From positions 62,001-126,000 of the forward strand of contig NZ_JAQQXS010000010.1 in NCBI RefSeq assembly GCF_028595305.1: a stretch of DNA of 64,000 bases, given 5' to 3'. The notes under the pieces are model-generated. The model was not told the origin of the DNA. It worked only from the letters and a program-made list of their open reading frames with translations, and did not search any database. Shown here in pieces: positions 8,488 to 34,583 of the stretch. The stretch's first letter is position 1, and each line of letters begins with the position of its first letter. Made by a program: the position numbers and the translations under genes. This DNA is from Roseateles koreensis (GTDB lineage Bacteria > Pseudomonadota > Gammaproteobacteria > Burkholderiales > Burkholderiaceae_C).

Positions 8488-8688
8488 TCAATGCTTGCCG
8501 GTTGAACCGAAGCCGCCCTCGCCGCGTTGCGAGGCGTCAGAGAATTCATCCACCCGGCGGAATGCGGCCTGCACCACCGGCACCAGCACCAGTTGCGCAA
8601 TGCGTTCCAGTGGCTGGATGACGAAGGCAGTTTGCCCGCGATTCCAGCAACTGACCATCAACTGGCCTTGGTAGTCGCTGTCGATCAA
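8488..8688 (-). pseudogene. dut: Resident dut, 3' fragment (split by island)
   Basis: Read on the minus strand, codons from [18 protein letters not shown] to the end [11 protein letters not shown] are the last 64-65 residues of a trimeric dUTPase: motif III (IDSDYQGQ), motif IV ([11 protein letters not shown]) and the C-terminal Gly-rich motif V ([10 protein letters not shown]). Upstream of the Ile codon the dUTPase sequence stops abruptly at base 8688/8689, where island sequence begins. The missing first 88 codons are at 34579-34841. The frame remains open for ~73 codons into the island, but that part does not resemble dUTPase. Confidence 0.93.
8684..8688. other. Left crossover core (attL), ATCAA
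   Basis: The five bases ATCAA are the last shared with the right junction; on the dut coding strand they read TTGAT, the Leu-Ile codons of motif III. Recombination probably happened in or next to them. The bases on either side differ between the two junctions (G and T here, T and C on the right). Confidence 0.75.
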
Positions 8689-8689
8689 T

Positions 8690-8701
8690 TTTCCAATGAG
8701 C
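8690..8701 (+). repeat. Left terminal inverted repeat (12 bp)
   Basis: TTTCCAATGAGC, one base inside the core. It is repeated exactly in inverse orientation at 34565-34576. Seven bases further in comes TGTAAA (8709-8714); the right end has the same hexamer, inverted, six bases inside its repeat. These are likely recombinase binding sites. Confidence 0.85.
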
Positions 8702-8869
8702 GCACATCTGTAAATGCAACGCTTTCGGTGAAATGCTGGGCGGCACACCCTTGCCAAGGTCAACACTAGGACTGCCAAGACCCGAAGCCCTTCCTCTGCC
8801 CGGTACCCAACGCAGGCAAGACCAGAGCAACTCTGCCGACGGTTACATTCTGGTCGAAGATCTTTTGAA

Positions 8870-9358
8870 ATGGCGAGAGAAATGAAACCCACTATAGAAA
8901 TCAAGATCATGGACGGTCGCCTTCGTCAGTGGGGCCTGCCGCAGTACCAGACCGCGCTTGCCGGTGCAATTGACCTGATGGCGTGCATCGACGAGCCGAT
9001 CACACTAAGACCGCAGGAGCCTGCGGTTCTTATCCCTTCCGGGATCGCGCTGCACATGAATTCCAGCGATCTCTGCGCAGTGATTCTTCCGAGATCCGGA
9101 CTCGGGCACAAAAAGGGGCTGGTACTCGGGAATAGTGCCGGGCTCATTGACGCAGACTACACGGCGCAGTGCTTTGTGAGCGCCTGGAACAGAAATCCAG
9201 TCAACTCTGGTCTTGATATCACGATCAATCCGGGCGACCGAATCGCACAGATGCTATTCCTGCCGGTTGTCCGTCCTACGTTTATCGTCGTCGACGAGTT
9301 CACTGCACCGAGCGAACGCGGACAAGGAGGTTTCGGCTCGACAGGCATTGGTCACTGA
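8870..9358 (+). CDS. dut: dUTP diphosphatase (island copy)
   Basis: Hydrolyses dUTP to dUMP and PPi, keeping uracil out of DNA and feeding dTMP synthesis. All five motifs of trimeric dUTPases are present: AGAIDLMA (I), PRSGLGHK (II), [10 protein letters not shown] (III), [10 protein letters not shown] (IV) and [10 protein letters not shown] (V); the length of ~160 is normal. It differs widely from the resident copy, so it was acquired, not duplicated. It is the outermost gene at the left end, opposite in orientation to the broken dut, and needs its own promoter. The ATG at 8870 has GAAGA 9 bases upstream; an ATG at 8882 is also possible. It probably replaces the function lost by insertion. 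Confidence 0.95.
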
Positions 9359-9474
9359 CCTGCAATGATCTCTAGGTGAACGTTTGGCCACAAGAAAAAC
9401 CGGCCGGGCGGCTGGGTTGGGGCGCACATTGCGTCGGACCGCGTCTTGCGGACCTCAGTAGCCGTGCATGCGTA

Positions 9475-10902
9475 CTATCGGCCGTGCACTTTGCGCCCAA
9501 TTCGAGTGCCTTTGGAGAGCAGTTCCAATTCCTCTGCCACCAATTTTTCGACGTGCTGCTTCTTACGAAATAACAGTCCGCGCTCATCTCTCGGTCGCCC
9601 CTTCGAATCCCCTTTGTATGAGAGCCAATTGAAGCTCGTAACTACCGCAAATTGGTCATCACAAACTAACGACTTGCGGTGCGTGTTACCGACATAGACG
9701 AAATGGAAGTTCTTGAACCTATCTGCGAGATCGCCTAGATCGCGCTCTGCACCTGGGGTGATGTCCGCCTTCTCGTTCGCTGCATTCTTCTTCGGCCCGT
9801 CAGCCTTCTCGATGCCGAATCCGATGTGGACCTCCACACCATTCCTCAGCAGCGCCTCAAGTGAAGAGATAAATCCCCAGTCAATTACCGAGTCCCGAAT
9901 CCACGGCGAGACGATCACAAGCCTCTTCTTTGCCAACAGCAGTGCCTTCTTCAAATGAGCCGGGTGTTCGTGGCAAAGCAAAGTCTGCATCGTCTCAACT
10001 TCAGGCGGCTGCGGTGCTGAACTGACCTTGTGGGACACCTGGCCCGCCCCCGTATTGACGAAAGTGCTACCACCTTCGGAGACCGCGGAAGATTCGGACA
10101 GTGACACCTCAGGTGGCATCAGAATTTCTTCCGGCAGCGTGCGTGCGCCAATCAGCTCAGGCCCGCCGATTGCTGCGAACGCCACCTCGTGCTGAATCGA
10201 CTGCCCATCCTCCCGCCAAAAGCCTATCTGCACATCGTGTGGGGCCATCGTGGACTTGTAGAACAGCATTGCGCAGGCAAGATACCGCAGCTCACGCCGT
10301 TCGATCCGGCGTATGGCGAGCAGCGAGCCGTTCCAGTCTGGCGACAGTGACGCATGCCGCTCCAGCACCTTGTCGAAGTCCTGAAGTGGGATGTCCTCCA
10401 CATCCGGGCGCTTAGACGTCCCGATCGGAACCTCAAACAGCCCATGATCCCGCATGTCCCGGCCGCGGAGCAACTGCTCGGGCGGAAGCAGGAGCAATCT
10501 CTTGGTCAGCGCGTCGAAGCAAACCTCGATCGGGCGCTCCTGAGGCTTAATGGTCGAGGCCTCTGCTAACGCATTGCGCCCCTTTGTTGAAAGCGTCACC
10601 TTGGCGTCTGAGTCACCAGCTCCGCGGGAGTAATTGATCAGCTCCGTGGTATTCAGCGCAACGAGGACCGGAGTGAGCACAGCCTTGGGCAGTCCCAGAA
10701 ACTCATAGATGCTTGCTGGTGCAGTCAGGCCGGCTCGCACGGCCCGCAGGACGGCCTCATCGATGGGGCTTATCGGCTTGCGTTCAAGGACAAGAATGCG
10801 CAGCCTGAGAACAAACACTGGCAGCCCAGCTTCCTTAAACGAGACCAAGTCGTAGCCCGACCTGGCGCGCGCGGCTACCTCCAGAACGCTCTCGAGGCTC
10901 AT
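9475..10902 (-). CDS. PLD-like domain protein, part of putative defence operon
   Basis: A 475-residue protein. Its C-terminal ~150 residues look like a phospholipase-D/nuclease fold: KKRLVIVSPWIRDSVI, then a strand LRNGVEVHIGFGI, then THRKSLVCDDQFAVVTSFNW, a single H-x-K-(x)4-D-like motif ending in the S-x-N-W typical of PLD-family nucleases. The N-terminal half is not recognised; it has a winged-helix-like stretch (ASIYEFLGLPKAVLTPVLVAL) and could bind DNA. One motif means it would have to dimerise to be active. I chose the ATG at 10902, which overlaps the kinase-helicase stop (ATGA); the earlier in-frame start is less likely. Third gene of the operon 16280-9475. Confidence 0.75.
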   Translation of the reverse strand: MSLESVLEVAARARSGYDLVSFKEAGLPVFVLRLRILVLERKPISPIDEAVLRAVRAGLTAPASIYEFLGLPKAVLTPVLVALNTTELINYSRGAGDSDAKVTLSTKGRNALAEASTIKPQERPIEVCFDALTKRLLLLPPEQLLRGRDMRDHGLFEVPIGTSKRPDVEDIPLQDFDKVLERHASLSPDWNGSLLAIRRIERRELRYLACAMLFYKSTMAPHDVQIGFWREDGQSIQHEVAFAAIGGPELIGARTLPEEILMPPEVSLSESSAVSEGGSTFVNTGAGQVSHKVSSAPQPPEVETMQTLLCHEHPAHLKKALLLAKKRLVIVSPWIRDSVIDWGFISSLEALLRNGVEVHIGFGIEKADGPKKNAANEKADITPGAERDLGDLADRFKNFHFVYVGNTHRKSLVCDDQFAVVTSFNWLSYKGDSKGRPRDERGLLFRKKQHVEKLVAEELELLSKGTRIGRKVHGR

Positions 10903-13900
10903 GGCAGTACCTCCTCGAGTGCACAAGTCTGCGGGTTGCGACGGATGTAGTCGATGACGTCACGCAAAGGGTTTGTCGACCCTTGAGCCGCCTGACAGAA
11001 GCCATGGTCACCGACGATAGCGAGCAGCTCCTTGCCGCGAGACAGCGCTACGTTGATGCGCTCCATCTCCCGCAGGAAGCCCAGCCCCTTTGCGTCGGAG
11101 CGGGTAACGGAGAACACCAGGATGTCGGCCTCGCGCCCCTGAAATGCATCCACAACGTTGACAAAAGTCTCCGAGAAGCTCTTCCACTGCCGACCTTTCG
11201 TCTGCACCGCAGTCTGCAGTCGTGCCCGTTGCTGGTCGTACCCCGTCAGGACCGCCACCGTCACCCGCTTGTCCTTGTAGCGCCCCCGTTGCATCCAAGC
11301 ATCGATACGCGTGAGCAACCCAATGACGATCTCAACCTCTGCGTCGTTGTAGTACGACTTGGCTTGCGGGCTTGATCCACGATTCGACTTGCGCACGGTC
11401 GAATACCAAGTCACTGGCCGCGGCATGACGCCTGCCAAGTGAGCCGCCGGTGCACGCTCAATGCTGCGCAGCTCTCCACGATAGAAACACTCGGAGATCA
11501 GGTCCCCGATAGCGGGCAGCATGCGGTGCTGCGATGTAAGCGACTTCTTCAGCGCAGTGGGCAGATTGGCGGCCAAGTGATTGAAGAGGGTCGCCTTCTG
11601 ATCGTCCGGCTTGAGATCGAAGCGCTCCAGAAGCCCCATAGTCCGCAGGTCCGGATCCTGAAAGGGCGAAAGCTGCTTGCTGTCCCCGACCAGGACAGTT
11701 CGACGAGCCCGCGACATCGGCACAAGCACCTCGGTGGGAGTCGCGATCGACGCCTCGTCCACGATGCACAGGTCGTAGGTGATCTCTGAGCGCCCCGGGA
11801 TGCTCATCACACCGAGGCAAGTGCCAGACACGACTTGGCTGGCTGCGATCACTGCGGCTTGGAAATCGCGACTGCGGCCGAACGCCGCCTCCCAATCCGT
11901 GTGGACCTGAAGCAGTTCCTTGAGCTGCCCCCCTGCAGGCGTTCCGTCCGAGTAGGCCTCCGCCCACCCGTGGAGATCGGTAGCCGAACACTCGGCGAAC
12001 TCCTTCAGTTCATCCTTGGACTCAATGTGGCTGGAGAGATCCTTCCACGACTCCTTGAGCAGTCCCTCCAGCAGGTCGCGATCACTGCTCAGCCCCTTGA
12101 ATCGATCCTCAAGTTCCGATTCTTCCTCCGCGCTCAAGCCGGCACGTGCCGACTTGGCAAGCTGTGACTCTAGTTCCAACAAGCCTTGCTCTGCTGCCTC
12201 TAGCCGCGTCTTGAGCTTGCCGTGACGCTCCATTGCCATGACACGGCGGATGTCCTTCACGTTCAGACCGTGTTCCTGGGCCCAGCGTTCCATGAAAGCA
12301 CGTCCGGCGGCGAGCGCACGCTTGCGCATCTCGGGAAGCTTCGTGTCAAGCATGAGCTTGCGGGTGGATGCGGCGATGCGATCATCGTCATCCTGTCCGA
12401 TGCGGACGGCATCCACCGGAATGGCGGTTTGCCCGACGATCCGCTCCAGCGAGTTGTCCAGCGCAACATGGGTCTGCGACGTGAGGAGCACGCGAGCGTT
12501 GGGGTTTGCCTTCAGCGTCTGAAGGACCAACTCAGTGATGAACGTGGTTTTGCCCGTTCCTGGCGGCCCCTCCACAAGCAAGAGAGGCGGACCGGAGAGC
12601 GCAACGAGCACAGCGTCCTGCTTGTCGTCATCGATCTGCGCGTTAATGAACTGCACCTCTTCCGTCGGCGGAACGGGGACGCTGTCTGGGCTGACGATGT
12701 AGCCGCCGAGCTCTGGGTTCACCGAGCGACCGTATCGCACAGCATCCACGGCTGCCTTCTGCTTGTCCAACGCAGCATCGGTCTTGGTGGTGTCAGTCTC
12801 TACGACGCCCTCTTCCGGTGTTGCGCCCGCGTCCATACGGTTGCGCACGCTGGGTCGCAGGAGAATGCCGTCGTCGGTGCGGGATATAACCTTGCCTCGG
12901 AACTCACCTTGCTCGCCAGCCGGGATGAATACATCCTGACCGACCATTCCCGATGGATCCACTCCTGGCCTCATCTTCAGACGCACGAACTCACCTGCCG
13001 GCCCGCGGTCCACGTATGGCAGCCTGAGGCGCCGACCCCGTTCAAGTTCGGTCTTCGCGCTGAGCAGGTCCACCCATTTCCGATACAGCTCCTGCCCCCG
13101 CTGCTCAAGCCACCGCTCCTTCTGGTCTGCCGTGAAGGCGAGAAGGCGATCTAGCAATGCATTAAGCGCATCGCTGGAAGCTTGGTTGGTCGCACCGGCG
13201 TGGGCGAATCTCACTTCGGGGTCCGCAGCATTGCTACGCCGACGCTCTAGATCTGACGGCTGGTATTCGAGCGCCGACACCAACAGCAGCCGGTTGCCGG
13301 CTTCTTCGCGCACGGCGATGTACCCATAGGTGCCTCCGTAGGCGCGGAAGCTCCGACCTGGCTTGTCAGGGACGGCTGGAATTTCCTCCATCCGTGCACC
13401 TTCCAGATCACGCTCGACGAAGCGCTCTGCCATTGCTCCGCGGAGCCCCTTGTCATACTCCACCGTACTGCGCACTTTGTTTGTCAGTGCCAGCAGGACT
13501 GCCGGGAGCGCTGCCCGCGCGGGCGCCGGCGCCGCCTGCTCGAGTTCGGCTTGGAGCAGGCCGGCGTTGGCGGGCCGCTGTTCCGGGCGCTCCAGATCCA
13601 AGCACCGTCGAAGGACGCGCCGGATCGGCTCTTCGATGGGAGATTCCTCCAGCAGCGCACCGAGATCGGCGTACTCATTGGGCTTTTTCCCAGTGAGGAC
13701 GGCCACACTCATGGCCGCAAAACCAAACACATCGCGGCTGTAGCTATAGCTTCCGTCGTCCGCCTCCGGCGGTGAGTAAGGTGCTGATGCGAATCGCGCC
13801 AGAGTGACACCAGGCGCCAGGAACGTACGGATCTTGGAGATCCCGAAATCGCAGAGCTTTACCACCCCTTGCTCGGTGACCAGGACGTTTGAGGGCTTCA

Positions 13901-14363
13901 CGTCGCGGTGAGCGGTTGAGCGTGTGTGTGCGAATGCCAAAGCGTCCAGCACACCTTTGCCCACGCTGGCGTAGTAGCTCCCCCAGTCGGAATACCTCGC
14001 TGGCGCCATCACGGAGCTCAAGTCCTGCTCCACCCATTCCATGACTACAAAGTGCACCCCGTGGTCTTCGTCACGACCGGAGTCAAGGATCCGGACGATG
14101 TGCGGGTGGCTGAGATCGGATAGAGCCTGAACCTCGCGACGGAACGACTCTTCGATGACGTCGTCCGTGCGTCCCTCGCTACGAAACACCTTCACGGCGA
14201 CCTTGGTAGTGGTCTCAAGGTCGGTCGCCTGGTACACCGTCGACAGGCCCCCACTGCGAGGCGCGCTGCGCGTAGTGACATAACGCCCCTCCGCAAAGTT
14301 TTGGCGAGGGCTGCCCTGTCGTGCCTCTAAGTCACCAAGCTTGATCGTCTTCTTCTCGGACAT
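10899..14363 (-). CDS. Ser/Thr protein kinase - SF1 helicase fusion
   Basis: A 1154-residue fusion. Residues ~25-280 form a complete Hanks-type kinase: the ATP-site Lys in VAVKVF (58), catalytic HRDVKPSN (152-159), CDFG (171-174) and SAPYSPPE. After a linker with a small beta-rich domain, residues ~580-1120 are an Upf1/Dna2-like SF1 helicase: Walker A GPPGTGKT (~595), Walker B IVDEAS (~866), GDSKQLSP, SQHRM and the late motifs DAFQGREADILVFS and NVALSRGK. All key residues look intact. The pairing suggests a nucleic-acid sensor motor that signals through phosphorylation, or a kinase regulated helicase; both are inference. It lies between a GmrSD-like nuclease and a PLD-like protein. Confidence 0.88.
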   Translation of the reverse strand: MSEKKTIKLGDLEARQGSPRQNFAEGRYVTTRSAPRSGGLSTVYQATDLETTTKVAVKVFRSEGRTDDVIEESFRREVQALSDLSHPHIVRILDSGRDEDHGVHFVVMEWVEQDLSSVMAPARYSDWGSYYASVGKGVLDALAFAHTRSTAHRDVKPSNVLVTEQGVVKLCDFGISKIRTFLAPGVTLARFASAPYSPPEADDGSYSYSRDVFGFAAMSVAVLTGKKPNEYADLGALLEESPIEEPIRRVLRRCLDLERPEQRPANAGLLQAELEQAAPAPARAALPAVLLALTNKVRSTVEYDKGLRGAMAERFVERDLEGARMEEIPAVPDKPGRSFRAYGGTYGYIAVREEAGNRLLLVSALEYQPSDLERRRSNAADPEVRFAHAGATNQASSDALNALLDRLLAFTADQKERWLEQRGQELYRKWVDLLSAKTELERGRRLRLPYVDRGPAGEFVRLKMRPGVDPSGMVGQDVFIPAGEQGEFRGKVISRTDDGILLRPSVRNRMDAGATPEEGVVETDTTKTDAALDKQKAAVDAVRYGRSVNPELGGYIVSPDSVPVPPTEEVQFINAQIDDDKQDAVLVALSGPPLLLVEGPPGTGKTTFITELVLQTLKANPNARVLLTSQTHVALDNSLERIVGQTAIPVDAVRIGQDDDDRIAASTRKLMLDTKLPEMRKRALAAGRAFMERWAQEHGLNVKDIRRVMAMERHGKLKTRLEAAEQGLLELESQLAKSARAGLSAEEESELEDRFKGLSSDRDLLEGLLKESWKDLSSHIESKDELKEFAECSATDLHGWAEAYSDGTPAGGQLKELLQVHTDWEAAFGRSRDFQAAVIAASQVVSGTCLGVMSIPGRSEITYDLCIVDEASIATPTEVLVPMSRARRTVLVGDSKQLSPFQDPDLRTMGLLERFDLKPDDQKATLFNHLAANLPTALKKSLTSQHRMLPAIGDLISECFYRGELRSIERAPAAHLAGVMPRPVTWYSTVRKSNRGSSPQAKSYYNDAEVEIVIGLLTRIDAWMQRGRYKDKRVTVAVLTGYDQQRARLQTAVQTKGRQWKSFSETFVNVVDAFQGREADILVFSVTRSDAKGLGFLREMERINVALSRGKELLAIVGDHGFCQAAQGSTNPLRDVIDYIRRNPQTCALEEVLP

Positions 14364-14417: not shown

Positions 14418-16280
14418 TCACTCTCTCGGCCAGAGCGCGAGCGCCCGAGAGAGCAAGTCGCGGCCACGCCGCTCTATGGCTCCTTCGTCCCACGCTTCAA
14501 CGTTCCGCAGTTGAAGGTTTATCGGCAGCAAGCTGTTCGCTTCAATGGCGGTCCGCTTGGTTGCCCAGTCGCCGTTCGAGATCGAGCTGTTCAGACCACC
14601 TGTGATCAAGGTGAGATTGCCGAACGTTTGGACAATCGCGCTTCGAGCGCGTGTCGCCAGCGCCCTTGGGTCATCTGCCGGAACTGACCATGGGTTATCG
14701 ACGCCCTTGTTTCCGTCCGGCAGTGGCCAGTGAGCGACCCAGGCCTGCGGCATCAGGTGTTCTACCGTCAGTTGCCCACTCACTTTCACCTGTTCGGTCT
14801 TGGATGTTCGATAGGTCTCACTGAGCTTGCTCAGGATGTAGACGATCCTTGGGTTGTTGAGCACTGAGTACGCGTGGCCAGTCATCCAGGCCTCCGAGAA
14901 TCGTTCATCGCTCGGCCACGCATCAGTGGCGCCCTGTAGGCTGGCCAGGTGCGAACGCACAACCGCAGCAGTGCCCCCATCTCGGCGAATCGCCCGCGTA
15001 AGCCCCATGAAGACACGGTTGTATGCCTTGGTGTCCGAGACGCAAACAGTCCGGCGGAGGAGATAGCTCTCGAGCATGCGTGCCACCTCGCGCATCTCAT
15101 CGTCGCTCGCTCCGAGATCGAGCATGGCGAGAAGAGGTGGGAAGACGGTGCTTACATCAAACGTCTCCAGAAAGTGGGCGAGTGGCCCGAGCGCATCGGC
15201 ATCGCTACGAACAACAAGTCGCCTGAAGTCCTTGCCTTGCTTCGCCAGCGCTGCGAGCTCCGCCTCAACCGACTTGTAGGGAGCGCTGCGCTCGACCCAA
15301 TATTTGTACTCGACAAACAAGTGCTTAATTGGGATGTCTCTGGCTTGCTTGCTGGCAAGAAAGTGCTGAATGAACAAATCACTGCGTGGACGCACCAAGC
15401 GCCCCTGTACGACCTCCTGGCGCCAAAAGGGCTCGTCAAACGCCGCCCAATATTTCTTGTACAGCGCCTCCTGTTCCTCGTTCCTCCGAGCGGCCCGAAG
15501 GAAGATGAAGTTCCGAAGAAGATCAGCCGGCAGGAGCGGCTCGCCACGCGCGTTGAGCGTCTCGAAGATGACCTGAGCGTCGTCGTCTCGGTCAAGATCG
15601 ATGGCAACCACCTTCAGCGCTGTCTTGAGAGCTTCGAAGCACTCCTCAAGGCGATCAGCCAACGGCTTCTCTGCCCCCAGCGGCGGCTCGTTCGGGTTTC
15701 CCTTGAAGAACTCTGCAAGACTGTCGTAGAAGAAAAAATAGGCCTCCACCATCCGAGGGCGCGGCTCGAACTTCCGCGAATACTTGCGTCTCGTCAGTGG
15801 ATGGAGCTTCTCCAGCGCATCTCGTGACCCAGCGTCAACGACATCAATGAACTGCTGGCGGTCGCTTAACGTCGGCCAGACCTTGTACTTCTCAACCTCT
15901 GGCTCGGCCATGCGACCAGTGTTCACGGTGTACTTTTCGCACTCGTCGGCGAAGTCGCCCAGCCCTTCTCGTCGACAGAAGTCGCGAAATGCCGCGAGGA
16001 AGATCTGAAGAGTCGTGAGCCGCTGTTGCCCGTCGATCACGCTGCGCCGCTCGACGCGCCCGGTCTGCGTTTGCCGCTGGTCGAGCACCATTGCGCCAAG
16101 GAAGTGAACTGGCGCGTCAGTTCGACCCTCGATGAACTCCACGAACTTTCGAGCGATATCCTCCCACAGCGGCGCCCATTGATGCTCCTGCTTCCAGACG
16201 TACTGTCGCTGGAACATTGGCACTTCCAGTCGCATCTTCTTCTCGAAGATGTCAAGCAGCGCGATCGCGTTGGCGTCCAT
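14418..16280 (-). CDS. GmrSD-like DUF262/DUF1524 protein (putative type IV restriction)
   Basis: A 620-residue protein with an N-terminal DUF262 domain, VPMFQRQYVW at ~20-29 and VIDGQQRLTTLQ at ~81-92 (the DGQQR motif of the NTPase half, as in GmrS). The C-terminal DUF1524 domain has HLMPQAW at ~508 and FGNLTLI followed by LNSSISN, the His-Me/HNH-like nuclease pattern of GmrD. Such fusions cut DNA with modified cytosines, typically phage DNA. The ATG has GGAGGAG four bases upstream. It is the first gene of an operon: the next gene starts 54 bp after it and the third overlaps by four bases, so it may be a part of a multi-gene system instead of a stand-alone enzyme. Confidence 0.88.
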   Translation of the reverse strand: MDANAIALLDIFEKKMRLEVPMFQRQYVWKQEHQWAPLWEDIARKFVEFIEGRTDAPVHFLGAMVLDQRQTQTGRVERRSVIDGQQRLTTLQIFLAAFRDFCRREGLGDFADECEKYTVNTGRMAEPEVEKYKVWPTLSDRQQFIDVVDAGSRDALEKLHPLTRRKYSRKFEPRPRMVEAYFFFYDSLAEFFKGNPNEPPLGAEKPLADRLEECFEALKTALKVVAIDLDRDDDAQVIFETLNARGEPLLPADLLRNFIFLRAARRNEEQEALYKKYWAAFDEPFWRQEVVQGRLVRPRSDLFIQHFLASKQARDIPIKHLFVEYKYWVERSAPYKSVEAELAALAKQGKDFRRLVVRSDADALGPLAHFLETFDVSTVFPPLLAMLDLGASDDEMREVARMLESYLLRRTVCVSDTKAYNRVFMGLTRAIRRDGGTAAVVRSHLASLQGATDAWPSDERFSEAWMTGHAYSVLNNPRIVYILSKLSETYRTSKTEQVKVSGQLTVEHLMPQAWVAHWPLPDGNKGVDNPWSVPADDPRALATRARSAIVQTFGNLTLITGGLNSSISNGDWATKRTAIEANSLLPINLQLRNVEAWDEGAIERRGRDLLSRALALWPRE

Positions 16281-17224: not shown

Positions 17225-17468
17225 GGACACTCCAAACGGCGTAGGCCGCAACACACACCCTAAGACAGGCATCGCTCGGCGCACGCATCCAGCATCGAAT
17301 TCATACAGGCGGCGCATCGGAGAATGTTTCGTAAGTCATTGATTCATAATGTGATTATGATGGATTTCGGCGCCGATTGTGGCGTTCAATGGGTGCCTGC
17401 AGGTCCCGGCCGACGTCCAGCCGAGTCGTCATTGCCTTGGCCCCACCACCCCAACCCATGGAGTTCCT

Positions 17469-19617: not shown

Positions 19618-19629
19618 TTTTTCCCTTGT

Positions 19630-20638: not shown

Positions 20639-20994
20639 TCACGCACCACCCGCTTTCTTTGCCGCACGGACGTCGGCAGTACCAGGGCGCGTATGCCGGA
20701 TGCGACGCTGTTCCATTCCTTGCCAACCAGGGACGTAGGCGCTCATCAGTGCCTTGAATACCCGCCCATGCGTCGACAGCCTCAGGTGCAGCAATTCGTG
20801 AACGATCACATAGTCCTGAAACCGCTGGTCCTGCTCAGCAAGATCGTTGGCCAGGGTCACGGTACCCGCCGAAGAACAAGACCCCCACTTCTTGCGCATT
20901 TCTTGGACGCGGATGACCTTCGGATTCACTCGGAGTCTCGTGGCCCAGCCGAGTGTTCGGCGCTTGAGATCCTGGATAGGAAATAGCGAAGACT

Positions 20995-20998
<4 letters not shown>
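20639..20998 (-). CDS. YgjP/SprT-like M48-type metallopeptidase domain protein
   Basis: A 119-residue protein with [20 protein letters not shown] and [16 protein letters not shown], the zinc motif H-E-x-x-H of the YgjP (DUF45) family. It lacks the longer N-terminal part of E. coli YgjP, so it is a short form. Its ATG overlaps the hsdR stop (ATGA), and in other bacteria short YgjP-like genes are often found next to type I restriction genes. It may help turn over the restriction complex, like ClpXP relief, but this is only inference. Confidence 0.8.
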
Positions 20999-23933
<2,935 letters not shown>

Positions 23934-23937
<4 letters not shown>

Positions 23938-25135
23938 GCGGTGGCCTCCTCGGAGATGACTGCAGCGCGGTAAAGCGCCGAAAGATCCAGCTCGTCGACC
24001 GCGATCTCGCCGGTCATCAGCTTGTGGAGCAGGGCTTTGAAGAGCGCCTCTTGTACTGCGCGCTTCTGCTGATGCAGGTCGATCTTGCGGTCGATGGCGT
24101 TGAGGATGGCGACTATCTCGTTCTGTTCGGTCTTGTCAGCGGGGAACGCCACTGGCAGGTCTCGCACAATGTCTAGATTCAAGTTCTGTTGCTGGCCACC
24201 ATGCGCGAGTTGGCGAATGGCGCTGTAGCGCGATACGAGGTAGTGGTACAGGTACTTTCCCTCGATGCGGTCGTCACTAGCCCGAATCGCTGCGCATGCC
24301 TGGTTGCAGGCCGCATCGATTCCCAAGATGGCGACCCTTCCTCGCGTCACGCCCTGGCCGTACATGGCTAGCAGTAGTGTTCCTGCCGGAAGGAGTTTTG
24401 CGGCCGACTCGGCCAAGCCCGCAGGAGTAATGTGTTCTTCTGTTTTTTCGATCACGCAGTAGTCCACTTCGGCCGTCTTGACCCAAGGGATTTTTCCGCC
24501 TACCCAATAAGCCGGGTTACTACGCGATGGAGTGCCGCCGGAAGCCACGGAATGGTGGGCACGCAGCGGTTCGACGACCCAGCTTTCCGGAATGGGGCCA
24601 AGGTCAGTTTCCTTCTGCGGCTCCGCGCGCAGGCCACGCATGAACAACTCGCGCATCGCTGCCTGCTTGAGGTCCTGCGCATGAGCGAGAGCTTCGGTTT
24701 CAAGCCGCACGCCGTTCTCAAGGCTGTCCAGTACTCGAGCGATGTCGTCCTGCTCATCCCGAGAGGGCCAACTGACCGAAATGGAATAGGCGTCTTCCCG
24801 GTTCAGGCCCGGAACTGCACTATGGCTATTCAGCCCGGTAAGGTCGATGTGCCGAAGCAGGTGAAACAGAAAACGCCAATTGTGGTCACCCTTGTTCACG
24901 ACGTAGTAGGTCGTATCGATGGGCCAGAACGCATCGCTGGAGTAGACGATCTCTCCTACCGAGCCCTTTCTTCCCACGACTATCCCAGGGCCATCTACGC
25001 AAGCCTCGGCGTGGGTGCCCACAAGACCGTTTGAACCGAACACGCCGTAGACCCCGGGATGTCGAGAGTGCGCGGGAAGCGCCCTCCCGTAGGCGAGGTC
25101 AATTTCGTCGCCCAACGTGGTGCCTCGCCAATTGC

Positions 25136-25139
<4 letters not shown>
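23934..25139 (-). CDS. hsdS: Type I restriction specificity subunit S
   Basis: A 401-residue HsdS with two target recognition domains: the first reads [13 protein letters not shown] to the segment [21 protein letters not shown], whose long helix is the central conserved region. The second begins [13 protein letters not shown] and ends in the matching helix [19 protein letters not shown]. It recognises the bipartite DNA site for both methylation and cutting. It starts with GTG, in GTGA overlap with the hsdM stop. No second or inverted hsdS copy is present, so there is no sign of phase variation. Confidence 0.95.
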
Positions 25140-26968
<1,829 letters not shown>

Positions 26969-26970
26969 GT

Positions 26971-26993
26971 ATGCGATGTTTGCTATATCGCAT
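26971..26993 (-). promoter_or_regulatory. Inverted-repeat operator at the hsdM start
   Basis: On the minus strand ATGCGAT-ATAGCAAAC-ATCGCAT: 7-bp perfect arms, 9-base spacer, ending two bases before the hsdM ATG. Six bases upstream is TTGACA (26999-27004), a perfect -35 box; at 17 bp spacing it pairs only with a weak -10 (AAACAT), which would give an almost leaderless mRNA. A Cro-like HTH, from HsdM itself or from the 107-residue HTH protein next door, is the likely ligand. Confidence 0.55.
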
Positions 26994-27036
26994 AACTTTG
27001 TCAAGACCCCGGGAGCCTAGAAGACTAACTTTCGCA

Positions 27037-27360
27037 TCAGCGCCACTCCGGCGGGAGTTCCAGGCTGTCGTCGGCACCAGTCTCCTTCGGCCGGTAATGA
27101 GCCTCAGTCATCGCAGCATTGGTGTCAACGACCGCCGCCCTTACCTCCTCCGGCAGGACCCGAAGCAGTAGGTCACGAGTAATGACGTAGCCCAGCGCAT
27201 CCAAGAGCCTCAGTCGCGCCTGGAGCGGAAGCGCACGGCGCCCCACGCGAACGTGCGCCAGCATGGCCGGACTAATGTCCAACCGCTTCGCCAAAGCAAC
27301 ATCAGACAGCTTCGCCTGCTGCTTGAGCCCCTCAATTCGCTGTATCCACCAATCGTCCAT
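27037..27360 (-). CDS. Small HTH DNA-binding protein
   Basis: A 107-residue protein with an XRE-like helix-turn-helix (residues ~10-60): LKQQAKLSDVALAKRLDISP then AMLAHVRVGRRALP, followed by a helical tail and a disordered end. It is the first gene before hsdM, which starts 68 bp after its stop, and it is divergent from the recombinase operon. It is thus placed to control either the restriction operon, as C-proteins do, or the mobility genes. The ATG at 27360 has only a weak AGAG ribosome site. Confidence 0.72.
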   Translation of the reverse strand: MDDWWIQRIEGLKQQAKLSDVALAKRLDISPAMLAHVRVGRRALPLQARLRLLDALGYVITRDLLLRVLPEEVRAAVVDTNAAMTEAHYRPKETGADDSLELPPEWR

Positions 27361-27422: not shown

Positions 27423-27439
27423 CGAACAACGAGCTTCAC

Positions 27440-29548
27440 ATGGTCAGACCGCGAACCACAAAGACCCTCCCCGTCACGAATTCGAAGGAAACCGCCACCG
27501 CTGCTCCAAGACTTGTAGCTCAGCGCAACGGACGAAAACTCGCATCGTTTGACACGATCCCGGGGCTCGACCGCACCTATCTGTCTAAAGTGGTCGAGGC
27601 GGTTGAGACGCACACCGAATCCCTCGCTTTCGACACCGCCAAATCGCGGGCAGACGCGACAAAAGCGGTTCTGACTTTCGCGAGCAGCGCCAGCATCCCC
27701 GAAGCGAAACGGGTCATCGCGGCACTGAACTCCGACAGCATCAGCTCAATCGATGCGGCAGTCGCCCATGCTGTAGAACTGGCTTATTGGGCGCAAATCA
27801 AGAAGGACTATCGCAGCGGATCCTCGACGCTTGCCGTCAAGATCGGTGAAACCAACCGCGCCCTATCCTGCCTGGCTTCTCGCGCACTCTGGCCACATAC
27901 GCTCGGCCTCCCACTCGAGCGGAGAGATGAAGAACAAACCGACGTCCGGCCAAGCCTTCTTGAGGCAATCGGGAATCAGAGCGACCGAGCAACGGACCTG
28001 AGGGGCCCAGAAGTACGCAAAGCTGCCGCACTGCGTGGTTTGCAGCGGCTGTCCATGCCATCACCCAAGGGCGACGCCGAACTCTCGGTGACTCTGCTCC
28101 GTGGGGAAAGCGAGTGCCTCGAAAGACTCAAGTCCGCTGCCAGATCCGTCTTTGATCGATCGTACATGGCTTGGCAGGCAATGCAGTCGCCGATTGCTGC
28201 CGCCCGAAATGCAGCCGACCCGGCTATGGACGAATGGTTTGCCGACTTCGTCAAGGCGGCCACCAAGGGAGGACGAGACCACATTCTTGAACGCCGGACT
28301 GCAAGCCTCTTCCCGACCACGGAAGAAGGCCTTGCGAAATTCCTCGCTCTGCTTGAGTCGACCTACATGGCCGGAGCGGCGTCGAGATTCCACTCTCTCA
28401 GCCCTGCCCTCCGCGCACAAGTCAACCTGAAGCTGAGGGCTGTGGCCTACCGAGTGCGGCCGGGTATGGCCGGGTTCGACCTGCCCGAGATGGACTCCCT
28501 CGAAGCACTCCGTGGACTGATGACGCCAAGCAGGTTGTGCGTCGGATCGACGGCGGTTCTGCTCATGCTGGAAACAGGGATGAACACATCGCCGCTGATC
28601 AGCCTTCCGTGGGAACAAGTGCTGCCCACCGATGATCCCCGTTGGCTCTCAATCGCAAACTGGAAGGAACGCGCAGGAGGATCATTGGTTGAGGAGGACC
28701 TCGCGGTCTCTCGCAACGACGAGCCCACCTCCGCCGGCGCCGCGCTGCTGAAGCTTCGCGAGATGGTCGGGCGTCACACTCAATTTGTGGGAAAGCCCAC
28801 CGCCGACAAACCCCTTGTCTTTGACCATGCAGCAGGTCACGTCGGAGAAGCTCCAACACCGTTCGTAGCGCCGATGACCAAGTCCTCTTTCAGGATTGCG
28901 TTTGACGCGATTTCCCTTTTGGCTTTCGGCAATCACCCAATCCCCGCACCGTCTGCCATCCGGCCCAGTCTACTGATGGTCCTGCGCGGACACTCCGCCA
29001 GCGTCCGAGAAGCCCAAGCGGCCGCCGGTCACAAGAACCCGAATACGACCAATAGGCACTACGCAGGTAACAAACGGGCGGCACACCATGCTGACCACAT
29101 GACCGCAATTCGGACCTTTCAGGAACGACTTGAACACGTCGCGATTCACAACTCTCAGTCCCAGCCAGCGGCGTCGGCAGATGGACTGAATGACGCCATC
29201 AAGACTGGTCTAGGCGTGCTCTGCATCCGCCCTGTTGATTCTGAAGAGCCCCCTATTCCGTCTGGATGCATGAGCCTGGAGGCATGTCCAAACTGCAAAA
29301 AGGTACGCCTGTCTACTGAAGCCGAAGACCTCGCCGATCTGCTTGCGTTCGGAGAACACCTCGCCACTCACGAGGCCTGGCTACAGACCCATCGTCCGGA
29401 AGCTTGGATGACCAGGTGGCTGTACTGGTCACTGCTTGTCAACGAGGTCAAGACTCGTGGAACACGCAGTGTTTGGGCACCCAAGCTACGTGAGGCCCAT
29501 GCCATCAACGCCTCTCGCCCAAAACCCAACTTTCCACCCCTTTGGTGA
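27440..29548 (+). CDS. Tyrosine-recombinase-like protein 1 (702 aa)
   Basis: First gene of the mobility operon. The C-terminal part has the tyrosine recombinase layout: LLMLETGMNTSPLISLPW (box I), SAIRPSLLMVLRGHSASVRE (box II), AAAGHKNPNTTNRHYAG with the H/W-box His and the Tyr. Box I carries Asn where the catalytic Arg (T-G-x-R) is expected, and box II has Ser in place of the His of H-x-x-R; Arg of box II and Tyr remain. It may therefore need help from a partner or be a structural subunit. Further on is a CMSLEACPNC cysteine pair. The N-terminal 330 residues are unrecognised. The ATG follows the promoter at 27373. Confidence 0.8.
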   Translation: MVRPRTTKTLPVTNSKETATAAPRLVAQRNGRKLASFDTIPGLDRTYLSKVVEAVETHTESLAFDTAKSRADATKAVLTFASSASIPEAKRVIAALNSDSISSIDAAVAHAVELAYWAQIKKDYRSGSSTLAVKIGETNRALSCLASRALWPHTLGLPLERRDEEQTDVRPSLLEAIGNQSDRATDLRGPEVRKAAALRGLQRLSMPSPKGDAELSVTLLRGESECLERLKSAARSVFDRSYMAWQAMQSPIAAARNAADPAMDEWFADFVKAATKGGRDHILERRTASLFPTTEEGLAKFLALLESTYMAGAASRFHSLSPALRAQVNLKLRAVAYRVRPGMAGFDLPEMDSLEALRGLMTPSRLCVGSTAVLLMLETGMNTSPLISLPWEQVLPTDDPRWLSIANWKERAGGSLVEEDLAVSRNDEPTSAGAALLKLREMVGRHTQFVGKPTADKPLVFDHAAGHVGEAPTPFVAPMTKSSFRIAFDAISLLAFGNHPIPAPSAIRPSLLMVLRGHSASVREAQAAAGHKNPNTTNRHYAGNKRAAHHADHMTAIRTFQERLEHVAIHNSQSQPAASADGLNDAIKTGLGVLCIRPVDSEEPPIPSGCMSLEACPNCKKVRLSTEAEDLADLLAFGEHLATHEAWLQTHRPEAWMTRWLYWSLLVNEVKTRGTRSVWAPKLREAHAINASRPKPNFPPLW

Positions 29549-29555
29549 TTCATTC

Positions 29556-32171
29556 ATGCAAGCCAACCGAGTCAGAAGCAATTCCGCATTGCTCAACGAG
29601 CATACAAACACACTGGTTCCATTGCAGGCCCGCCCGTGGCTGGATACGGAATCCACCAGCAGCCGTCTGCTCATTTGGGATACCGAACGCACTCGGATTT
29701 CCGCCGCAGAGGTGCTAGATCTTGACGTAGTTTTGCCTGACGGCACAAGTCTGCTTGATCCAATCAACGCAGACTGGCTCCAACTGGTGACGTCCTATGT
29801 CTATCTGCTTCGAGATGATCGCAGTCTCTCGCTTGACACAGCGAAAACACACATCTCCGTCGTCGACCGCCTTCTCATATTTCTGAAGTGGGCACGCCTG
29901 CACGGCATCTTCGACCTCGGGCGCATGACCCCTGACCTTATCGAGAAATTCAGCTCAGATATCTCGCTGGGTACAGGCCACGCGCTGAAGTACGTAGACC
30001 GCCTGAAGCGCTACCTCAGGGAAGCCAAAGGGGATCTTCCCTTCGTCACGGACAAGCTCTATCCGAAGAGAAAGACCCTGGACGTCGCGGCAATTTGCCA
30101 GGCGATATTCATCACATTCCACGGTCTCTCAAGCGACAAGGCTGCGAGCCAACTACTCGCGAGGGTCAGTGCGCGCCGAGGCTATCGCCCACCATCCTGG
30201 CAAGCGCCCACAAAGGGACCACTGCCAGCGCCAAAACCCGTCACTCGTGCTACGCATTCACGATTCGTCGAGGCAATCAGGTACCTGCACAAGTGGAATC
30301 GTGAGCTCAATGACGCCGGCCTTCGCTTTGTCCCCCTCCCAACGAAGGCGGATAAGCCGGGGTCATCGCGACTGCGCCCAGCAGGGCATACGAAGAATAT
30401 TCCGCCGGCGGAAGCCATGGCGCTGCTTGACACCAGCCTGGCATGGATCTATCAGCACGGCCCACGTGTGCTCGACCTATTTGACGACGTCGAAGCCTTT
30501 CATGAGGCCGAGTGCCTTCGCGCAGGCTCTCTTGATCGATGGAAGTCTGATTTGGCGGTGCAGGAGCTTCGGCGGGCGATGTCGCGATTCCTCGCAGCGG
30601 AAGACTCCAGGGGCATTGTTCCGCATGGCTGCATAAAGGTGATCCGGAACGAAACGGGGAAGGGTTACACCATCGCCAGGGCCATTCTTGCTGGCAAGTT
30701 CACAACTCGTAGCCGAACTGCCGCTAGTGCATGGCTGAGCCCGGCCACGCCAGTTGACGACACGCGACTCGCCATCTTGTTGCGTGGACGGCTCTCAAAA
30801 GAACAGCATTGGGCCACGACCTGGCCCTACTCCATGGTCCAACTGGCCGAGATGACCGGCACTGGCATTGGCACCATGAAGCGCTTCATTGATGGGGGAT
30901 GGCTAGATGTCCGCTCCCTTGAGCGGATTGAGGGCTTCCTAATCTCGCAGGGGGCAATGTCTCCAATCGAAGCGAAGACGGACGGTCGACGCGCGCCCGA
31001 CCGAATGGATCACGGAATTGCGGCCAACCTCGCTAAGTACGTAGCTCAGCATCCACTCAACACGCCCGTCGAGAGCGGCGGCCCGTGGCCGCTGCGTTGG
31101 AATCTGACCAACAGTTCACGAGACTCCGGGTTGAGCCTCTTTGAAGCGCTTAGGTACTGCATTCCGGCTGCAGCCCGAATCGTGATCGGAGTCTTCCAGG
31201 CACGTCGTGAGAGCGAGCTCACCTCCCTGGCCACAGACTGCATCTCGTTAGAAGAAGGGAACCTATGGTTTGAGTCACACATTGCGAAGTCCCTTCGCCG
31301 CGACAAAAAGCTACCGACAGTGAAAACGACGGCAGATGCGGTAGCCGTGTTGGACCGCTGGAGCGCGCGTGGCCGGGAAATGAACGGCACGAATCTACTC
31401 TTCTCTCACTGGGAGCCGCTCGGAGACGCGATTTCAGTTGTCAAGCCCAACCAGGATCTCAACAGATTCGCGGCCTTGGCCCTTAAGAATCCGCTGTCGG
31501 CACCGCTGCAGGTGCGTCAGTTCCGTCGATTCTTCGCCGTCACCTTTATGTGGCGATACCGTCTGGGAAGCCTGCCTGCATTGTCCGGCTTCCTGTGCCA
31601 CAGCGGCCTGAGCATGACCTGGGAATACGTGACCGAGAAAGTCGGAACGACGGTCATGCGAGAAGCCCAAGCGGAGTTTTCGAAGGAGATGTTGGTCGGT
31701 GCCGCCCTCGGGCGAATCAAGCTGCACGGCTCATTCGGTCGGACCTGGCATCGCTGGGCGGAAAAGATTCGTGCACAGGTCAAAGCCACCATCGAGTTCG
31801 TCAATTCGCCCCAGGAAGCTGACCGCATCTTTTTGCAGCATGTTGAAGCCGGCATTCGCATGCTTACGCCGACCCCGGGCGGGGTGTGTTCCGCCGGCGA
31901 TCGAGAGCGGGATAACAAGCGGGCAATGTGCGGAGTACCGGATCCAGAGGTTCCCGGTAGACACGTCAAGAAGCCAGAGCTTGCCCGCCCGGCCCAATGC
32001 GCATGCTGTCCGTTCAACGCGACAGATGAAAAACATCGGACTCATTGGGCCTCAATCGCCGCTGAGGCGCGTGCGGCCGCTGATTCGGAAGTTCCTTCGA
32101 TCATCAGGGACCGCGCACGCCTTGATGCCCCGAAGCTCGAGCGCATCGTCACATTCTTCTCAACCGATTGA
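29556..32171 (+). CDS. Tyrosine-recombinase-like protein 2 (871 aa)
   Basis: Second mobility gene, 8 bases after the first. The catalytic domain has FQARRESELTSLATDCISL (box I with Arg), QVRQFRRFFAVTFMWRY (box II) and FLCHSGLSMTWEYVTEK with the His and Tyr. So the core residues look present, though box II is degenerate. A C-terminal Cys cluster, CSAGDRERDNKRAMC and CACCPF, may bind zinc. The large size and the tail resemble TnpB of Tn554 and the large integrases of related multi-recombinase elements. I used the ATG at 29556; a longer reading overlaps the previous gene by about 110 bases and is unlikely. Confidence 0.82.
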   Translation: MQANRVRSNSALLNEHTNTLVPLQARPWLDTESTSSRLLIWDTERTRISAAEVLDLDVVLPDGTSLLDPINADWLQLVTSYVYLLRDDRSLSLDTAKTHISVVDRLLIFLKWARLHGIFDLGRMTPDLIEKFSSDISLGTGHALKYVDRLKRYLREAKGDLPFVTDKLYPKRKTLDVAAICQAIFITFHGLSSDKAASQLLARVSARRGYRPPSWQAPTKGPLPAPKPVTRATHSRFVEAIRYLHKWNRELNDAGLRFVPLPTKADKPGSSRLRPAGHTKNIPPAEAMALLDTSLAWIYQHGPRVLDLFDDVEAFHEAECLRAGSLDRWKSDLAVQELRRAMSRFLAAEDSRGIVPHGCIKVIRNETGKGYTIARAILAGKFTTRSRTAASAWLSPATPVDDTRLAILLRGRLSKEQHWATTWPYSMVQLAEMTGTGIGTMKRFIDGGWLDVRSLERIEGFLISQGAMSPIEAKTDGRRAPDRMDHGIAANLAKYVAQHPLNTPVESGGPWPLRWNLTNSSRDSGLSLFEALRYCIPAAARIVIGVFQARRESELTSLATDCISLEEGNLWFESHIAKSLRRDKKLPTVKTTADAVAVLDRWSARGREMNGTNLLFSHWEPLGDAISVVKPNQDLNRFAALALKNPLSAPLQVRQFRRFFAVTFMWRYRLGSLPALSGFLCHSGLSMTWEYVTEKVGTTVMREAQAEFSKEMLVGAALGRIKLHGSFGRTWHRWAEKIRAQVKATIEFVNSPQEADRIFLQHVEAGIRMLTPTPGGVCSAGDRERDNKRAMCGVPDPEVPGRHVKKPELARPAQCACCPFNATDEKHRTHWASIAAEARAAADSEVPSIIRDRARLDAPKLERIVTFFSTD

Positions 32172-32179
32172 TCAAAGCA

Positions 32180-32659: not shown

Positions 32660-32661
32660 CA

Positions 32662-33945
32662 ATGCTGACAACGTTTGTCGCAAAAACCGACTCTTCATGT
32701 GTGATCGATGGCAAGGTGTATCCCGACCTTCCGCTACTTATGACCAATGATGGCATCCTCGAGGTGCAGTCGGACTACCTTCGCGAACTCACAGTAATGC
32801 GGGGACTGAGCCCAGCGTCAGTAAACGAGATGAGCAAGTACCTCCGAACCCATGTGCACATCATGGACGCGGGCGGCCTTTCTTGGGAGCAGACGAACGA
32901 GGTCGCACTTCGGCGCTGGAGAAATGAACAGGCAGGCGAGAACCCGTCAAACGCTCGACGTGGCTATCTCAACCAGCAGCTCGCTGTGATTTACCACTTT
33001 CTAATTTGGGCAGAAAAGAAGGGGCGAATTCAAGGTGTCGTTGGGCCGCTATCGCCGGCAGACCAGTCCACGTTCTTGGTACCTGTAGAGATTGCTCGGT
33101 GGCACAGTGACGGGACGCCGGCCCATTTCAAGCTTCCGCTGCTCTATCGGACTGTTGGAGAGTCTGACCGGCGAAATGCTACCGCTGGTCAAGTAGATGA
33201 ACTCTTCGTTGCCCTCGCGAACGAGCAGAATCCCTATCTCGCCGAACGGAACAGTCTAATTGGGCGATTCGCTGAGAACACGCTGATGCGACGACATGAG
33301 ATTGCCGCCTTACTGGCCAGCCAATTGCCATCGCTCGGTGCCGCAAAGGCAGCATGCAGTAGTGGCGAAGAATTGACGATCTCCCTGCACATCACCAAGG
33401 GAATGAAGGCAAGAGAGACCATCGTGGATCCTCAGCTCGTCATAGACACATGGACGTTCATCGAGGCAAACCGCGCCGAGATGCTCCAACGAAGGTCTCT
33501 GCCCGATCGATCGGATCTCCCCATATTTCTCTCTTGGAGGACTGGGGGAAAAATACACGCAGATGCATTGACAAACCTGTTCTCATCGAAGCAAAAGCAG
33601 GCTGGGGTCAAGCGCGCCTCTCTTCACAACCTGAGATCAAAGGGTGCCACTGATCGCGTCGAGAGCTTGATTGATATGTATGAGCAAACTGGGGCACCCC
33701 TGCCAGACGAGGAGACCCTGCTTCTCCAAGCGCAAGAACTATTGGGTCACGCCAGTATTGCAACCACCAGAACGTATATACGGAGGGAGAAAAAGCGGCG
33801 GGCTGACCGCAAGCGCGCGGAGCATAAGGAACTGACGGACCGCTCCGAAAGGCTTAGACAATTAGACAGAGAGATTGCAATCCGCCAAGCTGAACTAGCG
33901 CGCCTCGCCAAAGAATCCGAAGTACGCACGAGAGTTCGCGATTAG
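32662..33945 (+). CDS. Site-specific tyrosine recombinase 3 (427 aa, XerC/D-like)
   Basis: Last gene of the operon and the most regular recombinase. The core shows NTLMRRHEIAALLASQ (box I Arg), HNLRSKGATDRVES (H-x-x-R), LLGHASIATTRTYIRRE (His and Tyr). The N-terminal SAM-like domain has YLRELTVMRGLSPASVNEM. The end is a 45-residue charged coiled coil (RADRKRAEHKELTDRSERLR onward). It should catalyse the strand exchange at the dut core, with the other recombinases. The ATG has GGGAG nine bases upstream, two bases after the preceding stop. Confidence 0.9.
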   Translation: MLTTFVAKTDSSCVIDGKVYPDLPLLMTNDGILEVQSDYLRELTVMRGLSPASVNEMSKYLRTHVHIMDAGGLSWEQTNEVALRRWRNEQAGENPSNARRGYLNQQLAVIYHFLIWAEKKGRIQGVVGPLSPADQSTFLVPVEIARWHSDGTPAHFKLPLLYRTVGESDRRNATAGQVDELFVALANEQNPYLAERNSLIGRFAENTLMRRHEIAALLASQLPSLGAAKAACSSGEELTISLHITKGMKARETIVDPQLVIDTWTFIEANRAEMLQRRSLPDRSDLPIFLSWRTGGKIHADALTNLFSSKQKQAGVKRASLHNLRSKGATDRVESLIDMYEQTGAPLPDEETLLLQAQELLGHASIATTRTYIRREKKRRADRKRAEHKELTDRSERLRQLDREIAIRQAELARLAKESEVRTRVRD

Positions 33946-34553
33946 GCACAGCACCAACTCTAGCCAAAATATTTTCAATCGACGAATTCATCCGAAATTC
34001 GATGCTCGATTTGCGGATGCATCTTCATAAAGACTAGCATCGAAATATTGTAGATTTCACTTCCGAATATCGATTAACAACTCGCATTCAATCGATAGGC
34101 AGATGTTACTATACAAGAGGCTACACAGTATAGTAAATGAAATCGACCGCAAAAGCAGATTCACTGCGGGGTCAACATTCACAGTATGGCGGCGCACTCA
34201 AATATACTAGAGTAGTTGGCCTCTGATTCGCGCTATCGAAGGCTGTTCAACTCGAAGATTGCATACGCGTAGATACAGCAAATTGGGCAACCCACACGGG
34301 GTGTCGCAACCGACCATCACGGCCTGCCGGGTGGGCTCTACGCAGGTTAGCTGCCGCCGGACTTTTGCGTGCCAGCCGACTCCACAGCGGAGTTCAAGTA
34401 CGCCATTTGCGCGCCCCATCATGCATCAGTTTGTTCTCGATCTAGCGGCTGATCACGCCGGCAGGCGGAACTGTGTTGACATGCAGCTCGTTGACAGCCT
34501 CCCCGCGCCGTCCAGCCCAAAGGCCTCATCTCACAGAGGGGACCGGCTGTCGT
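33946..34553. other. Noncoding right end of the island
   Basis: 608 bp without a convincing gene. The first half (33960-34210) is clearly AT-rich and holds the 9-bp direct repeat TTCAATCGA (33974-33982, 34087-34095), several ATCGA/TCGAT copies and the 9-bp inverted repeat at 34106-34136. The second half is GC-rich with only poor short frames on both strands. It may hold accessory binding sites for the recombinases, like the arm sites of other elements. Confidence 0.5.
34106..34136. repeat. Inverted repeat TTACTATAC / GTATAGTAA
   Basis: Perfect 9-bp arms with a 13-base spacer in AT-rich sequence near the island's right end. No T-run follows. A dimer binding site or a hairpin is possible. Confidence 0.65.
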
Positions 34554-34564
34554 TTACACCCGCA

Positions 34565-34576
34565 GCTCATTGGAAA
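34565..34576 (-). repeat. Right terminal inverted repeat (12 bp)
   Basis: GCTCATTGGAAA, the exact complement of the left repeat at 8690-8701. It ends two bases from the crossover core; the left one starts one base from it. TTTACA lies six bases further in (34553-34558). Confidence 0.85.
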
Positions 34577-34578
34577 GT

Positions 34579-34583
34579 ATCAA
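34579..34583. other. Right crossover core (attR), ATCAA
   Basis: Same five bases and orientation as the left core. Sequence to the right is the coding region of the resident dut; to the left is the island. Confidence 0.75.

Follow-up and report, generated by a model that had tools for sequence, protein, structure and literature searches.

As a rule, a site-specific element either stays out of essential genes or rebuilds the one it enters at the junction. Islands in tRNA genes, trmE and dusA restore one end of the target gene at the junction. Such islands insert site-specifically into conserved host genes and cause no lasting loss of their function, whereas in the locus described here the resident gene stays broken and a divergent whole gene is supplied. 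The locus is a 25.9-kb island in the dUTPase gene (dut) of Roseateles koreensis. It lies in a stretch of 64,000 nucleotides, i.e., positions 62,001 to 126,000 of contig NZ_JAQQXS010000010.1, which is referred to as the window. The proposed reading is that a site-specific, GInt-like island breaks the essential dut gene and carries a matched replacement for it, with a probability of about 0.85. This reading is based on the split, the intact second gene, the island ends, the recombinase quartet, and the matched pairs in relatives, all of which were read from sequence.

GInt islands insert site-specifically, and their operon has one small gene besides three that are tyrosine-recombinase-like; the variable cargo, of 2.5-70 kb, often includes restriction-modification (PMC5385486). 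The ginABCD genes lie at one end with the cargo after ginD, GinC has no first catalytic Arg, and all four genes are essential for excision and integration, with a circular form (PMC5385486). The flanking repeats are imperfect and at least 10-11 nt long, and the staggered exchange is 6-7 nt. The reported sites include ssb, an ABC-transporter gene, and the end of a gene for ribonucleotide reductase, and the authors considered that insertion probably does not completely inactivate the targets (PMC5385486). In the covered part of that text, dut, thyA, and umuC were absent. For the defence repertoire of E. coli, GInts have also served as one class in sorting its mobile islands (PMC10121019).

Compared by description, the window island has the same kind of quartet, i.e., three tyrosine-recombinase-like genes and a small one, with YR1 and YR2 themselves below the family cut-offs. 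The dut junctions and those of the thyA elements described below would fit a six-base exchanged stretch. The differences are that the cargo precedes YR1 and the full-motif recombinase, YR3, is the last gene, which is not the ginABCD order. The flanking repeat, of 5-6 nt, is shorter than the 10 nt or more of GInts, and dut is split mid-gene, apparently inactivated and replaced.

In Pseudomonas putida KT2440, a 65-kb island splits the essential tmk gene, and the dNMPK PP_1964 on the island supplies the function, as shown experimentally (PMC10653934). Its authors present it as a first case and conclude that the split halves form no functional protein. Two tyrosine recombinases are among the four shared flanking genes of that island (PMC10653934). 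By description, both islands split an essential gene of nucleotide metabolism and carry a gene that is shown, or in the window predicted, to supply the function, and the matched dut of the window is intact and unique in its genome. However, the targets differ, and the replacement for tmk comes from another kinase family. Integrative and conjugative elements (ICEs) of Acinetobacter interrupt chromosomal thyA (PMC12904642), which is also the target of the closest parallel of the dut island. They are set apart by description, as ICEs for which the covered text mentions no replacement thyA. The strand-biased circularizing integrative elements (SEs) have four core genes, including two catalytic and one non-catalytic recombinase-like protein (PMC10214605). 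They leave a 6-bp footprint, have few target sites, and were found by their authors only in Gammaproteobacteria. Compared by description, the window also has a four-gene recombinase module with a putative exchange of about six bases, whereas the SE order, i.e., intA, tfp, intB, srap, is unlike that of the window quartet. Two further assignments were rejected. The targets of jumbo-phage-transduced islands are tmRNA and tRNA in the part of the report covered (PMC12595487), and for the gamma-mobile trio, NCBIfam gave no match of that name. In the open literature, outside which most subscription papers lie, neither a published dut or ligA case nor a statement of a matched-pair rule beyond tmk was found.

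The earlier note on this DNA had claimed that the island splits the resident dut in motif III, and both pieces were located as claimed on the same strand (Table 1). The split point is inside the GLI/D of motif III. It had also been expected that removal of 8684-34578 would restore a normal dUTPase, and in-silico excision indeed gave a single in-frame product of 459 nt and 152 residues. The 5' piece overlaps coaBC (34838-36094), which was found beside dut in 17/17 genus loci. A SlyD-like gene (peptidylprolyl isomerase) was present in 6/17 short genus stretches around dut.

Table 1. Positions in the window of the dut pieces, the island ends, and the genes of the island
Feature	Position	Strand	Basis
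Resident dut, 3' piece, from the motif III Asp on	8488..8683	-	frame and genome match
Resident dut, 5' piece, first 88 codons, overlaps coaBC start	34579..34841	-	frame and genome match
Complete island dut, 162 aa	8870..9358	+	only intact dUTPase gene found in genome
ATCAA, left junction	8684..8688	.	host-like GATCAA 8683-8688
ATCAA, right junction	34579..34583	.	TATCAA 34578-34583
Left terminal arm TTTCCAATGAGC	8690..8701	.	
Right terminal arm GCTCATTGGAAA	34565..34576	.	
YR1, 702 aa, tyrosine-recombinase-like	27440..29548	+	Phage_integrase 25.3 bits, cut-off 27.1
YR2, tyrosine-recombinase-like, at most 911 aa (uncertain start)	29436..32171	+	alignment to relatives
Small protein of recombinase operon, 163 aa	32168..32659	+	
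YR3, 427 aa, tyrosine recombinase	32662..33945	+	Phage_integrase 28.7 bits, cut-off 27.1
107-aa protein, divergent from operon, possible regulator	27037..27360	-	weakly helix-turn-helix-like (E 0.003 to 0.01)
MkoB- and MkoA-like pair (kinase-helicase and PLD-type)	9475..14363	-	
GmrSD-type (type IV) restriction enzyme	14418..16280	-	
CBASS-like nucleotidyltransferase and patatin phospholipase	18724..20574	-	
YgjP-like gene and type I restriction-modification hsdR, hsdS, hsdM	20639..27004	-	

The state before insertion was examined in the 17 other genomes of the genus. In this check, which the earlier note had proposed, each of them had exactly one dUTPase match, of full length. The note had named a differing joint in relatives and a conflicting phylogeny of the two halves as grounds against its claim, and neither was seen. 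TGATCGA at the joint position was kept in 17/17 relatives. The 5' half was 80-94% identical to the relatives and the 3' half 86-94%, with agreement between the two rankings (Spearman 0.75, p 5e-4, n = 17). The rejoined protein was 83-95% identical to the genus duts (tblastn), and it was grouped in the tree with four congeners (L013, L014, L015, and L017) at a fork of 86/88, i.e., unstarred and of moderate support. Because the joint is conserved, the half identities rank alike, and the rejoined protein falls with congeners, the two halves are on this evidence derived from one resident gene. Site-specific insertion at a precise, conserved coding point is likewise supported by the rejoined frame, the 17 relatives, and the tree. 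In a sample of the order, a dut match was found in 148 of 150 genomes (all except G544 and G545). Exactly one match was found in 147, and only the island-bearing genome had three. A dut split at the same codon elsewhere had been proposed as a check, and no second split dut was found among the 147 other sample genomes with a dut match.

The three dUTPase matches of the R. koreensis genome are the two resident halves and a complete gene within the island, which was overlooked in the earlier note. As the other two matches are the resident pieces, this gene is the only intact dUTPase gene found. It is located approximately 180 bases inside the left end, on the strand opposite to the resident dut. 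Its product scored above the cut-offs of PF00692 (84.8 vs 22 bits) and NF001862 (144.2 vs 103 bits). It was aligned over almost its whole length with the solved bacterial dUTPases 6mai and 4lhr, with conserved stretches, GQGGFGSTG among them, kept. It is a predicted enzyme of the trimeric dUTPase family. Its identity was 47-52% to genus duts, at most 59% to other duts of the order, and 49-52% among the best ten listed of 1210 matching phage records. In the tree it was placed on a very long branch, with unsure placement. The possibility that the island dut is specially recoded at the target codons, to give self-immunity, was considered and rejected. The mismatch was no greater there, i.e., 0.39 per nt vs 0.48 for the whole gene, and 0.25 vs 0.26 at identical residues. 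Separately, the arm octamer GCTCATTG (34565-34572) was identical to the GLI-D codons of the island dut (9142-9149), either by chance or as a trace of the origin of the ends.

The ATCAA that the earlier note had reported at both junctions is real, and a perfect 12-bp inverted repeat adjoins it. The repeat is formed by the two island ends, with 8 bp of spacer between its arms, and a perfect inverted run this long was reached by 1 of 20,000 pairs of 40-mers drawn at random from the island. The left end is GTCGATCAATTTTCCAATGAGC and the right end is GCTCATTGGAAAGTATCAACCCGAC, and the predicted circle junction is GCTCATTGGAAA-GTATCAAT-TTTCCAATGAGC. The identical flanking repeat is 5 nt (ATCAA), or 6 nt with one mismatch. 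GATCAA on the left and TATCAA on the right are consistent with a putative exchange at the L-I codons of GLID that involves about six bases. In addition, TTTACA (34553-34558) and TGTAAA (8709-8714) flank the 12-bp arms, 6 and 7 bases away, as if they were symmetric further binding sites.

The recombinase operon is composed of four co-directional genes at the right end (27440-33945), in the order YR1, YR2, small gene, and YR3. No Arg was seen by eye at the expected first catalytic place of YR1. The window YR2 had no Pfam match; the YR2 of a related element on a viral contig (L050) passed Phage_integrase (29.9 bits), and R, R, H, and Y residues were shared in the alignment of YR2 with its relatives. 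In profile comparison, the YR1 and YR2 alignments matched genes 2 and 3 of a module beside ssb in a genome of the same family (98.3% and 99.7% probability), and the small operon protein was aligned weakly. The modules beside ssb (L027 and L028) lie directly upstream of that gene in another gene order, with a YR3-like gene first in L027, and fit the GInt ssb site. A split of ssb was rejected for these relatives, as ssb was intact and a single match in G197 and G252. No Pfam match was found for the 107-aa protein that diverges from the operon.

YR1 was found in its own genome alone among 399 genomes of the order, YR2 in 3 others among 399 genomes of the family, and the YR2 alignment in 2 others among 369 genomes of the class. 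No relatives came from scanning viral contigs with YR1, with YR2, or with either of two YR2 alignments, and L050 was found on a viral contig with a short YR2 alignment (1/66 stretches). The genome-contig scan with YR2 alone gave 14 stretches, none a relative, and plasmid tblastn gave 9 weak records. The tRNA and Rfam scans of the window had no matches.

The relatives were collected by a genome-contig scan with the short YR2 motif alignment. The scan was blind to the target and gave 16 loci (16/79 stretches). These comprised three thyA loci (L065-L067), four ligA loci (L068-L071), two comM loci (L073 and L075), one unclear locus (L080), and six loci of the L035 type. In seven of the 16, a split thyA or ligA was found with an element-borne second copy, the Brucella copy being broken as assembled.

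In the thyA loci of Sinorhizobium glycinis (L065), Phyllobacterium trifolii (L066), and Brucella oryzae (L067), the quartet was accompanied by a thyA 5' piece and by a second thyA. Whole-genome searches placed the 3' pieces on the same contigs as the 5' pieces. The Sinorhizobium pieces covered profile positions 1-177 and 174-266, 129 kb apart, and the Phyllobacterium pieces 2-178 and 169-266, 90 kb apart. In Brucella oryzae they covered 2-177, plus 174-266 in two stretches. A genome of the window's family (G183) also had a split thyA, whose pieces (2-176 / 172-266) lie 54 kb apart and enclose both a complete thyA and a further partial copy. The viral contig had a thyA 5' piece and a complete copy, and no thyA 3' piece was found on that contig. 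In all five cases, the 5' piece ended at profile positions 176-178. The end layout of the thyA elements is as in the dut island. The predicted circle of the Phyllobacterium element is ATGTCGGAAA-ACCCTTCT-TTTCCGACAT, again with GGAAA, eight bases, and TTTCC, and CCCTTC lies on the P-F codons of GVPFNI in thyA. In Sinorhizobium and G183, the left-hand stretch of six to seven bases does not agree with the target, and the perfect inverted run reaches just 7. Such a left-end mismatch is expected if the stretch need not match, but these are a weaker case.

Two loci with thyA genes have features of their own. In G183 (C2:1663657-1718235; L025, L109), a third thyA copy (profile 1-211) adjoins the host 5' piece, and the locus is perhaps a composite of two elements. 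In L080 / L117, from the metagenome-assembled genome (MAG) LL3.bin11, a thyA N-terminal fragment precedes YR1 and a complete thyA follows right after YR3, unlike the other thyA elements.

At the ligA loci, a ligA 3' piece was found beside YR1. The L069 piece was read by eye from the list of open reading frames, and the search for second copies covers the other three genomes. In these, i.e., Marinomonas, Colwellia, and Photobacterium, the 5' piece is a frame of 412-433 codons and is followed by a ligase-like frame of 647-654 codons. Both ligA pieces of Photobacterium aquimaris are on one contig, approximately 17 kb apart; those of Marinomonas lutimaris and Colwellia are on different contigs. 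The ligA elements break at RAGDV/IP and have different arms, GTGTCAC/GTGACAC. The best NCBIfam matches of the ligase copies (two tested) were LigA models.

The ligase copies were 64-67% identical to each other across the three genera and 27-33% to the host pieces, and the host pieces were 54-64% identical to each other. For thyA, the Sinorhizobium and Phyllobacterium copies were 78% identical, copies and host pieces 54%, and the host pieces to each other 82%. Because the carried copies are closer to each other across genera than to host pieces, they look like element genes and not duplications of host genes, with the exception of the viral contig. At the two comM loci, comM, which is not known to be essential, was truncated. 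In Kordiimonas, one strong truncated ComM match was found beside the module, with no close second comM copy, and the Polaromonas MAG had two truncated ComM matches and is ambiguous. A quartet of near-100% identity was shared by a Providencia plasmid, Thalassolituus, Colwellia chukchiensis, Neiella, and Acinetobacter sichuanensis (L035, L076-L079), and it was beside a beta-lactamase gene in L035. The L035-type quartet is apparently a recently spread element.

Several points weigh against the reading of a matched replacement. No promoter-like site was found near the island dut by a simple scan. The gene is at the opposite end from the host 5' piece and faces inward, so it would need its own promoter, whereas the thyA copies of L050, L065, and L066 and the ligA copies follow the host 5' piece on the same strand, the ligA copies directly, and could use the host promoter. 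Because only one dut case was found, the dut pair is a single event. The host piece of L050 and its own copy are 65% identical, which is as near as this copy comes to the other element copies. The two ligase copies tested score below the curated LigA cut-offs of 444 and 369 bits (308 and 303 bits for one, 300 and 302 for the other). In the HxxR motif of the window YR2 (31512-31529), R stands where five aligned relatives have H. Finally, 7/16 loci are unassigned, including the six of the L035 type (L072, L074, L076-L079), for which no target or copy was identified.

The island dut may instead be ordinary cargo, i.e., a phage-type dUTPase or a protein of another role, in which case landing in dut would be a coincidence and the host would tolerate the loss of dUTPase. 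The many matching phage records agree with this, as dUTPase genes are common on phages, and so do the two order-sample genomes without a dut match. However, the carried gene also matches the split one in the thyA and ligA cases, which have related recombinase modules alongside, and the island gene passes the cut-offs of the cellular dUTP diphosphatase model. Coincidence is unlikely. The genome is a draft of 35 contigs, so an assembly chimera was also considered, as was a decayed relic instead of a mobile island. Both are very improbable, since both junctions are inside one 193.5-kb contig, and the terminal repeats are perfect over 12 bp, the recombinase frames are open, and parallel cases occur elsewhere. 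That the resident halves still form a working split dUTPase, with the second gene dispensable, is hardly credible: both halves are stop-free up to the junctions, but the 5' piece stops after 95 codons in island DNA without motifs IV and V, and the tmk halves were concluded to be non-functional (PMC10653934, covered part).

The reading of a matched replacement gives the following mechanism. The four-gene operon of the GInt kind would drive the island as a site-specific mobile element. The recombinases would join the circle, with its arms GCTCATTGGAAA / TTTCCAATGAGC and about six exchanged bases in the spacer, to the L-I codons of GLID, a stretch among the most conserved parts of dut. The insertion would destroy the resident dUTPase gene, and the carried dut of a distant lineage would supply the enzyme afterwards and keep the cell alive. 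Target and carried copy would be matched, as thyA-splitters carry thyA and ligA-splitters carry a ligase. Activity of the recombinases is presumed, as are expression and activity of the second dut. Unless excised exactly, the island could presumably not be lost without harm to the host.

The cargo includes four defence modules, i.e., the MkoA/MkoB-like (Mokosh) pair, the GmrSD-type enzyme, the CBASS-like module, and the type I restriction-modification system. At 16607-17317(-), a YggL-type domain and the C-terminal domain of an Xre/MbcA/ParS antitoxin are joined in a single frame.

The target and the carried gene were matched as a pair for three different genes, beside related recombinase modules. 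It is reasonably probable that a class of four-recombinase islands specialises in splitting essential genes of DNA precursors and replication (dut, thyA, ligA, perhaps tmk) at highly conserved codons, each lineage with a matched, long-diverged replacement. A split essential gene, a complete divergent copy, and a recombinase quartet would then be a signature for mining, and such islands would be a route for swapping essential genes for distant homologs. The replacement would open a near-universal site in an essential gene and tie the host to an island with four defence modules, and an addiction-like hold of the defence island on its host is predicted. If true, the pairing makes a lethal insertion site an always available target and locks the island and its cargo into the host.

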